Origin: Roseovarius halotolerans
Lineage (GTDB): Bacteria; Pseudomonadota; Alphaproteobacteria; Rhodobacterales; Rhodobacteraceae
DNA: 64,000 nt
Direction: 5' to 3'
Assembly: GCF_900172255.1 (NCBI RefSeq)
Contig: NZ_FWFU01000004.1
Span: 1 to 64,000, forward strand
Part shown: positions 10,700 to 47,917 of the stretch, piece after piece
How positions within the stretch are numbered: the first letter of the stretch is position 1
Layout: each line of letters begins with the position of its first letter
The notes under the pieces: generated by a model
Told to the model about the DNA's origin: nothing
Database searches by the model: none
Seen by the model: only the letters and a program-made list of their open reading frames with translations
Position numbers and translations under genes: made by a program

Positions 10700-11854
10700 T
10701 CAGGAAGCCTTGCGGTTGGCGATCTCCTCGCCGATCCGGTCGAGTTCCCGCTCGTCCTCGGGCAGCCCCTCGCGCGACAACAGCACCGCCACCTTGCGCA
10801 GGCCCGGCACATGGCTGCAGATGACCAGCAGCATCACCATGATCGGCACCGAAAGAAACATCCCCGGAATGCCCCAGACCGCGCCCCAGAAGGCGAGGCT
10901 GATGATGATCCCGAAGGACGACAGCCTGAGCGCGCGGCCCATCATCCATGGGTCGATCACGTTGCCGTTCAGGAACTGGATCGCCGCCGACAAGACAAAG
11001 ATCAGCCCCGTGGTCTGCGCATCGCCGGTTTCCACATAGGCCACCAACGCCACCATCCCCGTCGCCACGATCGAGCCGATATTGGGGATGTAATTGAGGA
11101 TGAAGGTCAGGATGCCCAGCGCCAGCGCCAGTTCGATCCCGAAGAACTGCGCCAGCACATAGATCATCGCGCCGGTGATCAGGCTGACGGCGGTCTTGAC
11201 CAGCAGGTAATAGTTCACCCGGTGGATGATCGATGAAATGATCTTGTTCACCCGTTCGGCCTGAGCCTCGTCGCCCAGGAAATTCGCCATCTTGGTGTCG
11301 AACCAGATCCGCTCGGCAAACAGGAAGCCAACGAAAAGGATGACCAGCACCGTGCCCTGCATGAGGTTCCCCGCCTGCCCCGCCACGGTGCGCACATAGC
11401 TCGATATCTGCACGCTGCTGAGCGAGTTCAGGACCGCCTGTTCGACGTCCTCGCCCATCCAGGAGAACAGCGAGGCGACCGCCTCGGGGGCGCGCTCGGC
11501 ATAGGAGACGGTGGTGAACAGAACGGTGTTGAGCTGTGCGAGAAGGATCGAGGAAAGCACAAGAAGCGCGCCCGAGATCAGCACAAGGGCGATGATCGAG
11601 GCCAGCCAGTTGGGAAAGGCGAACCGCCCGATGCGCTGGCGCGCGATCAGTCGGATCACGTCCGAGGTGAGCGAAAAGAGGATGATCGCCACCGCCAGCG
11701 AGATCAGCAGGAAGCGCGCCTGCACCAGCATGAACAGCACCACCGCAAAGGCGATGATCACCAGGGCCGTGGTGCGCACACGCGCATCGCTCTCGGTCTC
11801 GCCCAAGCCCCGCGCCAGCTTATCTTCGTCTCGCGTTCCCATGTTCCCCTGCAT
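10700..11854 (-). CDS. AI-2E family transporter (PerM-like permease)
   Basis: A polytopic membrane protein of about 384 residues in the AI-2E/UPF0118 family. It has an N-terminal pair of membrane segments, a long middle domain, then four or more segments containing GILTFILNYIPNIGSIVATG, the hallmark of the family. Members export small molecules or ions (AI-2 in one case, Na+/H+ antiport in others), so the substrate is open. Two starts are possible: ATG at 11854 and ATG at 11842 (MGTRDEDK), the latter with AGGGG just upstream. It converges on the crotonase gene with a 23-base gap. Confidence 0.85.
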   Translation of the reverse strand: MQGNMGTRDEDKLARGLGETESDARVRTTALVIIAFAVVLFMLVQARFLLISLAVAIILFSLTSDVIRLIARQRIGRFAFPNWLASIIALVLISGALLVLSSILLAQLNTVLFTTVSYAERAPEAVASLFSWMGEDVEQAVLNSLSSVQISSYVRTVAGQAGNLMQGTVLVILFVGFLFAERIWFDTKMANFLGDEAQAERVNKIISSIIHRVNYYLLVKTAVSLITGAMIYVLAQFFGIELALALGILTFILNYIPNIGSIVATGMVALVAYVETGDAQTTGLIFVLSAAIQFLNGNVIDPWMMGRALRLSSFGIIISLAFWGAVWGIPGMFLSVPIMVMLLVICSHVPGLRKVAVLLSREGLPEDERELDRIGEEIANRKAS

Positions 11855-12046: not shown

Positions 12047-12135
12047 TTCGGGGGGAAGATGCCAAGCCGAAGAAGGTACGGAAATGACGGTCTTTTGTAC
12101 GTTTGACATGCGCGCGCCCTGTTAAGGCCCGGTCG

Positions 12136-12190
12136 TGACCGCCCCGAAACCGACGCGATACCGACCCGTTACCGGCGCGATACCGAAGCG
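12136..12190. repeat. Array of five 11-bp units with ACCG...CG core, array 1
   Basis: Five contiguous units of exactly 11 bases start at 12136, 12147, 12158, 12169 and 12180. Each has ACCG at unit positions 3-6 and CG at 10-11; the consensus is ATACCGAcgCG. The 11-bp period places every core on about the same DNA face. A related array lies at 46555-46599. It is upstream of mscS and suggests a cooperative protein-binding site rather than coding sequence. Confidence 0.7.
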
Positions 12191-12338
12191 GGTTCCGCCT
12201 TGTTAACAAGGGCCCGCGGGGTCTCGAATCGGCCCGTGATGCCCGCGCAGCGACGCCGCGCCCCGCTTTTCCTTGATCCCCGCGCCGCTTGCGGGCATGA
12301 GAATGTCGCCAAGGTATTGTTTGACGAGAGGTTGTTTC

Positions 12339-13676
12339 ATGGACTGGGATCACCCACCCGCCGTCATCGCCCAAGGGGTCGATCTTGCCCTGCGGGGCTG
12401 GGATCTGGCAAAGGGCTGGCTCTCGAGCCCGGCGGCGTGGTCGCAATTCGCCCTTATCATCGCCGCCTACCTGCTGGCTTTCCTTTTGGCGCGCAAGTTC
12501 AGGCCCGCCCTGGCCCGCCTGCTGGCGCCGCCCCCCGGACAGGACAATATCATTGCCCGGATCCGCCAGACCCTGCTGTTGTTCATGCCCCTGATCCTGC
12601 CGCTGCTGGCCTACGGGCTGACCGGCATGGGCGAAAGCCTGACCCGCTCGATCTTTGGCTCGGGGGCCGTCATCGCCTTTGGAAAAAGGGTTTTCCTGTT
12701 CCTCGCGGTGCGGATTCTTGTGCGTGACATCCTGCGCGATCCCTTCCTCAAGCTGATCGGCAGATACGTTCTGATTCCGGTCGCCGCGCTTTATGCGCTT
12801 GGCCTGCTGGAGCCGGTGACGGCAAAGCTGGCAACCACGATCGTGCCGCTCGGGAACATGTCGTTTGACCTTCTGTGGTTGATCAAGGCCATTGTCGCAG
12901 GCGGCATCGTGTTCTGGCTCGGGCGCTGGTCGAACGACCGGACCGGCCAATATATCCAGACCCAGGCCGAGATGCGCCCCGCCACGCGGCAACTGGCCGC
13001 CAAGGCCGCCGAGATCGCGATCTTCGGCGTGGCCTTCCTCGTGCTGATGAACTATCTCGGAATCTCGCTGACATCGCTGGCAGTGCTTGGCGGTGCCATC
13101 GGCGTCGGGCTTGGCTTCGGGCTGCAGAAGATCGCCTCGAATTTCATCTCGGGGGTCATCCTGCTGCTTGAGGGACAGGCGACCGTCGGCGACTATGTCG
13201 AGCTTGACGGGGGCGAGGCGGGAACCATCGTCAAGATGACGGCCCGCGCCGCGATCCTGGAAACCGTGGACGGCCGCTGGATCGTGGTGCCCAACGAGGA
13301 TTTCATCACCACACGCGTCGTGAACTACTCAGATCAGGGCAGCGCCAACCGATATGAAGTCGAGTTTTCAGTATCTTACGGGACGGATATCAACATCGTC
13401 CCCGAGATCATCCAGGAGGCTGTCGGGCGCTTGCCACAAGTGTTGGACAAACCCGAACCGCCGGATTGCGAGCTGCGGAAATTTGGCGACAGCGGGATCG
13501 AGTTCGTGGTCGAGTTCTGGATCAACGGCATCGACGAGGGCGCCAACAAGGCCTCGCCGGATGTGCTGTTCGCGATCTGGAACGCCCTGAAGGCGCATGA
13601 CATCGAGATCCCCTTCCCGCAGCGGGTCGTGCATCATGTGGGTCTCGAAAAGGCCGGATTGACACCTGCGGCATGA
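12339..13676 (+). CDS. MscS-family mechanosensitive channel
   Basis: A 445-residue membrane protein with several N-terminal segments, then the MscS core. The pore helix is at about 251-275 (GGAIGVGLGFGLQKIASNF), followed by the beta domain (EGQATVGDYVELDGGEAGTI) and the C-terminal cytoplasmic alpha/beta vestibule. It would release osmolytes on hypo-osmotic shock. It is larger than E. coli MscS (286) because of extra N-terminal membrane segments. ATG 12339 is preferred, with GAGAGG 8-9 bases upstream. Its stop overlaps the next gene (ATGA at 13673). The upstream region carries the 11-bp array. Confidence 0.9.
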   Translation: MDWDHPPAVIAQGVDLALRGWDLAKGWLSSPAAWSQFALIIAAYLLAFLLARKFRPALARLLAPPPGQDNIIARIRQTLLLFMPLILPLLAYGLTGMGESLTRSIFGSGAVIAFGKRVFLFLAVRILVRDILRDPFLKLIGRYVLIPVAALYALGLLEPVTAKLATTIVPLGNMSFDLLWLIKAIVAGGIVFWLGRWSNDRTGQYIQTQAEMRPATRQLAAKAAEIAIFGVAFLVLMNYLGISLTSLAVLGGAIGVGLGFGLQKIASNFISGVILLLEGQATVGDYVELDGGEAGTIVKMTARAAILETVDGRWIVVPNEDFITTRVVNYSDQGSANRYEVEFSVSYGTDINIVPEIIQEAVGRLPQVLDKPEPPDCELRKFGDSGIEFVVEFWINGIDEGANKASPDVLFAIWNALKAHDIEIPFPQRVVHHVGLEKAGLTPAA

Positions 13677-46494: not shown

Positions 46495-46554
46495 GCGTTG
46501 GGGCTGCGCGCGCCCTGTTCACGATTCACCCGCCCTCGACGGCCACTGACAGGC

Positions 46555-46599
46555 GCACCGACGCGATACCGATGCAATGCCGGGGCGATACCGAAAGCG
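46555..46599. repeat. Array of 11-bp units with ACCG...CG core, array 2
   Basis: Units start at 46555, 46566, 46577 and 46588: GCACCGACGCG, ATACCGATGCA, ATGCCGGGGCG and ATACCGAAAGCG (the last with one extra base). Laid against 12147-12190 the two arrays align through ACCGACGCGATACCGA and CGATACCGAA...TTCC. It lies between tldD and dprA, upstream of dprA, as the other array lies upstream of mscS. Confidence 0.7.
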
Positions 46600-46687
46600 T
46601 TTCCATATCGTCGGGGAGAATAATTAAGGCGCAATATCAATATCTTGAAATAATTCTCGCAAAGAATCGCGACTCGCCCGTTTGCGG

Positions 46688-46704: not shown

Positions 46705-46744
46705 ACCCCTGCGCATAGTGGGTTTGCAAGCAGGCGGAGCGGCG

Positions 46745-47917
46745 ATGTCCGAAGACCCACATCCTTCCACTCACCCCCCACTCCCACCCACCACGGAAGA
46801 TGATCGGGTGTCGTGGCTCCGCCTCTTGCGCTCACGCCGGGTCGGCCCAACGACCTTCATGCGGCTGATGGGGGAACATGGCTCTGCCAGCGCGGCGCTT
46901 TCGGCGCTGCCCGAAGTAGCCCGCGCCGCCGGGGTCGAGGATTACAGCCCCTGCCCCGAGGACGTCGTCCGCGCCGAACTGCGCGCCGCAAAGGCGGCGG
47001 GTGCGCGCATGATCTGCATGGGCGACCCTCTCTATCCCGCTGATCTGCAACAGATTCCCGATGCGCCGCCGCTTCTCTGGGCGATTGGCGATCCCGATGT
47101 TCTCAAACGCCCGATGGTCGCGCTGGTGGGCGCGCGCAACGCCTCGTCGCTGGGGCTGCGCATGGCCCGCGCGCTGGCCGCCGACCTTGCCGCCGAAGGC
47201 TTTGTCGTGGTCTCGGGCCTGGCGCGCGGCATCGACACCGCCGCCCATACCGCCACGCTCGACGCGGGCACCGTCGCCATCTTGGCCGGGGGCGTCGACG
47301 TGATGTACCCGGCCGAAAACGCGCGCCTTGCCGAGGGTATCGCCAAGACCGGGCTGCGCCTTTCGGAGCAGCCCCTGGGCATGGCGCCGCAGGCGCGCCA
47401 TTTTCCCCGCAGGAACAGGATCATAAGCGGTATTGCAAAGGCTGTCGTGGTGGTCGAGGCGGCGGTCAAATCGGGCTCGCTCATCACCGCCCGCATGGCG
47501 CTTGACCAGGGGCGCGAGGTGCTGGCGGTGCCCGGCCACCCCTTTGATGCGCGCGCCGCCGGGTGCAACATGCTGATCCGCGACGGTGCTCTTCTGGTGC
47601 GCCGCGCCGCCGACGTGATCGAGGCGCTGCCAGCCACCGCGCACCCGGCCCCGGCACAGACGGAAATACCACTGACGGAACCGGCCCCCGCCCTGCCCGG
47701 CGAACCTCCGACGCCACCGCGCGAGCGCCGCAGCCTGCGCGATACCGCCCTCTTGCACAGCCAGATCCTTGACCGGCTCGGCCCCTCGCCCCTGGCCGAG
47801 GATCAGCTGATCCGCGATCTGGCCGCGCCCGCCAACGCCATCACCCCGGCGCTGACCGACCTGGAACTGGATGGCCGCATCCGCCGCCAGCCGGGTGGCC
47901 TTTTGTCGCTGGCCTGA
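46745..47917 (+). CDS. dprA: DNA-processing protein DprA
   Basis: A 390-residue DprA/Smf protein that binds incoming single-stranded DNA and loads RecA during transformation and gene-transfer-agent uptake. After a Pro-rich N-terminus and SAM-like region comes the Rossmann-like domain with ALVGARNASSLG, SGLARGIDTAAH and SGSLITARMAL, and a C-terminal winged helix (about 325-390). ATG 46745 follows GGCGGAGC and is preferred to an in-frame GTG at 46718. A CtrA-like box and the 11-bp array lie upstream. Confidence 0.94.
   Translation: MSEDPHPSTHPPLPPTTEDDRVSWLRLLRSRRVGPTTFMRLMGEHGSASAALSALPEVARAAGVEDYSPCPEDVVRAELRAAKAAGARMICMGDPLYPADLQQIPDAPPLLWAIGDPDVLKRPMVALVGARNASSLGLRMARALAADLAAEGFVVVSGLARGIDTAAHTATLDAGTVAILAGGVDVMYPAENARLAEGIAKTGLRLSEQPLGMAPQARHFPRRNRIISGIAKAVVVVEAAVKSGSLITARMALDQGREVLAVPGHPFDARAAGCNMLIRDGALLVRRAADVIEALPATAHPAPAQTEIPLTEPAPALPGEPPTPPRERRSLRDTALLHSQILDRLGPSPLAEDQLIRDLAAPANAITPALTDLELDGRIRRQPGGLLSLA

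Follow-up and report, generated by a model that had tools for sequence, protein, structure and literature searches.

Results

The array between the transporter gene and mscS

By the window we mean the whole stretch of 64,000 nucleotides analysed here, which lies on contig C9 of a genome of 3.73 Mb (labelled G000, and called the own genome below). Between the gene of an AI-2E-type transporter (10700-11854, minus strand) and the gene of MscS (plus strand, start at 12339), both identified by Pfam, five contiguous 11-bp units are found at 12136-12190, whose ACCG cores at 12138, 12149, 12160, 12171 and 12182 follow each other in exact 11-bp steps, with CG at positions 10-11 of every unit. The initial annotation had described these units as a non-coding array upstream of the MscS gene that chance would not produce, and it was right on each count: the array lies between called genes, and 200 dinucleotide shuffles of the window gave a mean of 0.055 two-unit runs and in no case three or more units in a row, against the one run of five that is observed. 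A scan of periods 8 to 30 returned no second five-unit array with at least six fully constant columns in the window. The perfect palindrome CCTTGTTAACAAGG described beside the array is also present, at 12198-12211.

These array coordinates are just the middle part of a longer repeat. Six copies could be aligned well past the limits of the array, and R1, a sequence-only model of 111 positions, matches at 12111-12219, leaving 119 bp between the mscS copy and the mscS start codon. A second model, R2, covers the core in 57 positions. The features in the window are as follows.

12076-12100, plus strand: two GTAC boxes, 21 bp apart (12076 and 12097), found by eye
12111-12219, plus strand: complete Roseovarius-type element; R1 match of 90.9 bits, the top-scoring copy in the own genome, with a score that is partly by construction because R1 was built from six copies including this one
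12112-12125, plus strand: left conserved block GCGCGCCCTGTTAA
12138-12148, plus strand: fifth, degenerate upstream unit of the mscS copy
12149-12187, plus strand: conserved core of four boxes (consensus ACCGACG) at 11-bp pitch; R2 match at 12145-12196
12190-12196, plus strand: position of the T-tract, degenerate at mscS (GGGTTCC)
12198-12211, plus strand: palindrome CCTTGTTAACAAGG, the right conserved block of Roseovarius copies
46507-46604, plus strand: second copy in the window, between tldD and dprA; R1 match of 36.4 bits, core at 46557-46595

A pair of GTAC boxes at 21-22 bp, farther left, was also seen by eye in several Roseovarius copies. The second copy, whose neighbours are TldD and DprA by Pfam, has its boxes at 46557, 46568, 46579 (degenerate) and 46590, so that the related array said to lie 34 kb away is real. 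The DprA frame has several candidate starts past this array (window 46718-46858), either a GTG at 46718 or an ATG at 46745 or later, and given these multiple possible starts the distance from array to start is uncertain at dprA.

A dispersed family of intergenic repeats

The mscS array is one member of a dispersed family of intergenic repeats and not a site specific to mscS. In the own genome the exact two-unit pattern matches 13 times forward and 4 times in reverse, the reversed control giving 1 and 2, and R1 recovers 37 copies at E<=1e-3 (55 matches at E<=10, where weak matches could have arisen by chance). The link with mscS that the initial annotation implied did not hold up, as copies occupy dozens of other gene gaps and as only 2 of 80 mscS loci of relatives, a few of them with little or no upstream flank, have a copy upstream of mscS, both in Roseovarius (L079, R. 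pacificus, and L076). The closest of these 80 loci is that of Roseovarius sp. EGI FJ00037, with 92% identity of MscS in the best segment; such MscS relatives put the own genome within or beside Roseovarius, and their names are the basis for assigning it to Rhodobacteraceae. In Shimia aestuarii (L101), a Rhodobacteraceae MAG (L111) and a Pseudopelagicola MAG (L127), a common copy is located at the end of the gene that follows mscS.

Across the genus, with 95 candidates scored per genome, R1 has matches in 23 of 40 genomes, the own one included, and copy number ranges from 0 to 92; five of these 23 genomes have a single match at 1e-4 to 1e-3 that may be chance. The R2 core is found at E<=1e-6 in 19 of the 40 sampled genus genomes, and since the other 21 are without it at this threshold, the element is dispensable within the genus. 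A family-wide R1 search (12 candidates scored per genome, strict filters) matched 34 of 295 genomes, and R2 matched 4 of 385 genomes across the class at E<=1e-5, all four in the window's own family, so that matches were seen only inside Rhodobacteraceae. In a genome of another genus, G320, at least 150 copies are present, a lower bound given that 150 candidates were scored, and the ten copies inspected there (L264, L267, L270, L273, L276, L279, L282, L285, L288 and L291) carry similar flanks, which makes this genome a good place for studying how copies spread. A 0.57-Mb contig of G007 (G007:C2), which is probably a second replicon, holds 10 copies, spaced about as densely as on the main contig.

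A phage origin was considered and rejected. The exact-pattern scan of viral contigs returned one contig with an array, and the gene adjoining it is, judging from its sequence, presumably a bacterial-type acyl-CoA dehydrogenase gene. Neither phages nor plasmids gave a BLAST match to a 50-base copy, a result of little weight because the low-complexity filter may mask such repeats, and an 851-base query had no match among plasmids either.

Anatomy of the element

For the comparison of copies, 152 were placed in six genomes: 32 in the own genome (the best 30 and two more), the best 30 of 54 in G021, 60 of 62 in G007, and 10 each in G320, G256 and G308. All six genomes share three repeats of ACCGACG plus four bases, then ACCGA and about six further bases, after which most of the genomes have a T-tract. 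This core of four boxes is about 38 bp long, with 4 C and 3 G in every 11 bases. An alignment of 52 of the 152 copies, taken in the larger sets from roughly the better two thirds, extends across 57 columns with zero gaps. Such a fixed pitch of 11 bp accords with the proposal of the initial annotation that the array would suit a cooperatively binding protein. A fifth ACCG is found 11 bases upstream in direct orientation in 12 of 152 copies and in inverted orientation (CGGT) in 22.

The copies of Roseovarius carry an extra left flank, GCGCGCCCTGTTAAC, and an extra right flank, TTGTTAACAA. The adjoining palindrome, which had been noted as a neighbour of the array, does belong to the unit as part of the Roseovarius flank, but neither it nor the rest of these flanks is shared by the copies of G256 and G308. 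At the left end of one copy of the own genome (L021, G000:C9:498419-498524), the block GCGCGCCC-TGTTA-GGGGGCGCGC folds back by eye and is then followed by a run of T on the strand opposite to the element, so that this copy resembles an intrinsic terminator there.

Conservation and apparent selection

For sixteen of the 32 own elements, the corresponding gene gap of G021 also holds a copy, without exception in the same orientation to the gene, and this is a lower bound because 30 of the 54 G021 copies were compared; between the own genome and the 60 copies of G007, six are in the same gap and direction and one is inverted. One gap of G021 contains two copies (G021:C4 380750 and 381040; L174 and L181) where the own genome has a single one (L019). 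In the 17 orthologous pairs between the own genome and G021, which involve the 16 own elements, core identity is 83.0%, compared with 82.5% in 943 non-orthologous pairs. Over 55-56 bases of flank, identity is 53% and 64% in orthologous pairs, the latter figure partly owing to the conserved right block, 50% and 51% in non-orthologous pairs, and about 46% after shuffling; the pair L021-L070 is an exception, with flanks kept at 78% and 93%. Most flanks have diverged between orthologous gaps whereas the core has stayed at its consensus with high identity, which suggests that the core is under selection.

These data bear on the reading that the element is a mobile or copied intergenic repeat, REP- or MITE-like, which spread with a strand bias and serves no host function, and which we consider unlikely. 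Some copying did occur, given the flanks that Roseovarius copies share past the core, and a copy number that varies from none to 92 in the genus and reaches at least 150 in G320 would be natural for such a repeat, as would the left and right blocks at mscS, which by eye are partly complementary (GCGCGCCCTGTTAA against TTAACAAGGGC) in the manner of MITE inverted repeats; strand-biased insertion would also yield a bias in direction. Against this reading, the core holds to the consensus in orthologous gaps where the flanks decay (L021-L070 excepted), and the Roseovarius flanks are not those of G256 and G308. The Y1 (RAYT) transposase of REP elements is absent from all ten element-rich genomes, which counts against mobility by the Y1 mechanism, and is encoded by two of seven element-poor genomes. 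A REP/RAYT repeat in the strict sense was rejected on this absence and because the core is not an imperfect palindrome.

Direction and local strand composition

When the surrounding 3-6 kb were examined with the element itself removed, GC skew along the element strand was negative (C > G) in 141 of the 152 copies, namely 30/32 in the own genome, 30/30 in G021, 53/60 in G007 (55/60 with a slightly different mask), 9/10 in G320, 10/10 in G256 and 9/10 in G308. A nearest-sample test in G308, where samples are sparse, failed, with 32 of 56 in agreement; the ten G308 loci examined for local skew are those with 9/10. On G007:C2 the sign of the skew obeys the rule in nine of the ten copies, several of them near zero, the exception being that at 294792. 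Gene direction does not follow the same rule: genes run mostly along the element at 18/32 copies in the own genome, 14/30 in G021 and 33/60 in G007, and the opposite gene biases of G320 (1/10) and G256 (9/10) go with the same sign of skew. Third-codon-position skew agrees as well (27/32 in the own genome, 30/30 in G021, 52/60 in G007, 8/10 in G320 and 10/10 in G256). Past the stop codon of one conserved gene, which we take to be the GTPase gene ychF (proteins 90% identical), the orientation of the element relative to the gene in G021 is opposite to that in G007, and each copy conforms to its local skew; a second flipped case (L042/L170 versus L206) disagrees with the skew in G007.

The composition also differs between the two sides of the element. 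For 20 copies in each genome, the 20-kb stretch centred on the copy was split into halves, and the left half was richer in C than the right half in 16/20 cases in G032 (p 1.7e-4) and 17/20 in the own genome (p 0.0017), and the difference was not significant in G007 (12/20, p 0.12); the step was first noticed in G032, which is included in the pooled figure of 45/60 (p 2.7e-6). A matching step in AT skew was seen in G032 only. With 5-kb arms and all 60 stretches, the step is at its maximum 1 kb right of the element and is gone 3 kb left of it. Eleven own copies selected for having no left neighbour have a mean skew of -0.063 over the 0-10 kb to their left and -0.009 over 2-10 kb to their right (10/11, p 0.003); the change to -0.028 at 10-50 kb to the left is not significant (7/11, p 0.083), and one of the eleven has the opposite sign throughout.

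Mutation pressure alone was rejected as the source of the coupling by argument, the asymmetry of the core being presumably too small for an agreement above 90%. Part of the coupling could reflect a mosaic of inverted segments; against this, 17 of 20 element-free 20-kb stretches of G032 carry the sign of their own arm, with mean skews of +0.022 (13 stretches) and -0.055 (7 stretches). Skew in these element-free stretches also depends on gene direction (rho 0.42), and gene direction was therefore put into the regressions reported below.

Chromosome arm and spacing

Of the 98 copies in three genomes assembled in one to three contigs, 69 are oriented toward the assumed origin, or 67 when dnaA is used for G007 too. 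By genome, agreement with the arm is 23/33 in G032 (origin at dnaA; Fisher p 0.067), 12/14 in G094 (dnaA; p 0.026; 14 listed matches of 18) and, in G007, 34/51 with the origin at the skew switch (p 0.023) or 32/51 with dnaA (p 0.093). There are no long blocks of a single direction in G032 (19 runs, 16.2 expected), G308 (31, 33.4 expected) or, less clearly, G094 (5, 7.8 expected), and directions are weakly blocked in G007 (19 runs versus 26.2 expected, p 0.024). Because agreement with the arm is moderate and directions are not in blocks, the direction of the element is more tightly coupled to local composition than to the chromosome arm.

Regressions that include arm and gene direction point the same way, with an element effect of -0.055 on the left and -0.017 on the right in G032, and of -0.064 and -0.056 in G007, which outweighs an arm effect of 0.009 to 0.025. 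All 13 G032 copies that are set with the arm have a negative 3-kb skew along the element, and so do 4 of the 7 set against it. As the element term outweighs the arm term, a purely replicational explanation is incomplete. The reading of the element as strictly replication-polarised was weakened by the nearest-sample test in G308, by the moderate arm agreement and by the larger element term.

The spacing of copies is more even than random in G007 (CV 0.71 versus 0.97, p 0.008), clumped in G032 and indistinguishable from random in G308 and G094. On the G032 chromosome (G032:C1), 0.8 Mb at 1.38-2.18 Mb, containing the point opposite dnaA, are without copies, a gap of a size that arose in 1.1% of random placements, and G007, G308 and G094 have no comparable element-free gap.

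It is in this light that a polar barrier to replication forks, or terminator, resembling Tus-Ter in its action, has to be weighed, and we regard it as distinctly unlikely. The element is directional and probably protein-bound, composition shifts close to it, and Ter sites likewise hold one direction per arm. Against it, copies are spread over most of the chromosome and are absent from the 0.8 Mb of G032 that contains the point opposite dnaA, and four of the seven G032 copies set against their arm have a local skew of the element's own sign.

Placement relative to genes

Genes were called with a simple codon-usage caller, which returned none for G308. Almost all examined copies lie outside coding sequence (2 of 60 G007 copies are inside a called gene), and so, of the pattern that the initial annotation had put forward as speaking against its reading, namely a random spread, mostly within genes and not conserved at mscS, the genome-wide occurrence was borne out but the coding location was not. 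Gaps with a copy are tandem, convergent and divergent in 18, 10 and 2 cases in the own genome, 19, 9 and 2 in G021, and 35, 14 and 9 in G007; for the other gaps of at least 60 bp at the same loci the respective numbers are 12, 0 and 9, 6, 3 and 7, and 67, 14 and 31. The mscS gap is one of the just two divergent gaps among 30 placed own copies. A stop codon is found within about 35 bp of the matched edge in 24 of 32 own copies, 18 of which abut the stop of a right-hand gene that runs against the element. In G007 the directions of the flanking genes are mixed (+/+ 20, -/- 15, +/- 14, -/+ 9). The direction of the element is thus not fixed relative to genes in the own genome, G021 or G007.

That the copies would form a regulatory array for their neighbours, such as sites at 11-bp pitch for an activator of the PhoB/OmpR type, we hold to be very unlikely. 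Direct repeats of 11 bp are the layout of Pho boxes, and the mscS copy ends 119 bp ahead of the start codon; divergent gaps, on the other hand, are underused, with shares of 2/30, 2/30 and 9/58 among copies versus 9/21, 7/16 and 31/112 among other gaps (own genome, G021 and G007, respectively), no shared function was evident by eye among the neighbour genes of the own genome, and direction is independent of genes in the three genomes. It is just as improbable that the copies act in 3' untranslated regions as a structured RNA or as a terminator, which the nearby stop codons and the T-tract that often follows the core might suggest, considering that copies occur in both directions relative to the upstream gene, that there is little excess of folding, as mean z-scores relative to mononucleotide shuffles are +0.61 and -0.64 for the core on its two strands and -0.18 and -1.07 for 150 bases, and that five element loci gave no Rfam match at the gathering score, the two matches at mscS being below threshold (one of them, ROSE_3, overlaps the array with 14.3 bits against a threshold of 43).

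Discussion

Our best guess, advanced tentatively and with chances that we would put a little short of even, is that the element is a directional, cis-acting element of chromosome maintenance, bound by a protein, kept by selection and linked to replication or segregation. Because the pitch is fixed and the boxes are conserved, we infer a protein site, in which a sequence-specific protein would bind the four ACCGACG boxes on one face of the helix over about 38 bp, with the T-tract at the 3' end, and might do so cooperatively. Selection would keep the element at intergenic places without the neighbouring gene being served, and because direction is independent of genes, gene regulation is not what the placement suggests. 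Direction would instead matter for a process that acts on DNA and not for transcription of the adjacent gene; together with the one-sided composition, it argues for a one-way DNA transaction. The element might, for example, be a site of loading, pausing or restart that is read one way and leaves a stronger imbalance of C over G on its 5' side. The observed sign, an element strand poor in G to the left, matches what leftward forks would leave, given the usual sign of replication skew.

The element may cause this composition or may instead sit at the edge of segments that have it. A more specific version of the proposal, which we think rather unlikely, is that a one-sided DNA transaction, for instance a unidirectional replication restart, begins or is anchored at every copy; its wake in composition would extend at least 10 kb on the 5' side and could override the background of the arm. 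If a directional element that is long, conserved, present in tens of copies and accompanied by a directional imprint on the adjoining DNA indeed acts on the chromosome, it would provide a handle on chromosome handling in Rhodobacteraceae. Directional chromosome signals are known in detail in few model bacteria, and most are very short.

Comparison with known systems

The initial annotation knew of no described element with such a unit, and a search of the open-licence literature, subscription papers being mostly uncovered, likewise found no published description of the four-box element. Pho boxes and iterons are direct repeats at one or two helical turns that are bound cooperatively and tied to promoters or origins. 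The element resembles them in being made of direct repeats at helical pitch, but it is not tied to promoters or to one origin. REP/BIME and ERIC sequences are palindromic and have many intergenic copies, often near the 3' ends of genes, and REPs need Y1 transposases. Multiple copies between genes, often near gene 3' ends, are a feature of our element as well, which unlike these families is a conserved multi-box array of direct repeats with little excess of folding.

Ter sites are single sites of about 20 bp, few in number, found in the terminus half of the chromosome and holding one direction per arm. Like Ter bound by Tus, the element is directional, a candidate protein site and inclined to one direction per arm, and unlike it has four boxes and many copies that extend beyond the terminus half. 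Chi sites are directional signals of 8 bp or less that are found chromosome-wide and act on one side of the DNA; the element shares with them its direction, its chromosome-wide occurrence and an apparent one-sided effect on DNA, whereas Chi is shorter and far more numerous, and the side and strand of the element do not match in a simple way.

AIMS are described (PMC5993296) as short strand-preferring repeats of 8 bp proposed to guide replication or segregation, and 7119 copies of 27 AIMS were plotted there in E. coli, rising toward the terminus. For our element, enrichment near the terminus was not apparent by inspection of the genomes examined, and unlike AIMS octamers the element is a four-box core of 38 bp that is intergenic and occurs in tens of copies. 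Like KOPS and AIMS, it is strand-biased and chromosome-wide, with 141 of 152 copies following the local skew and 69 or 67 of 98 the chromosome arm.
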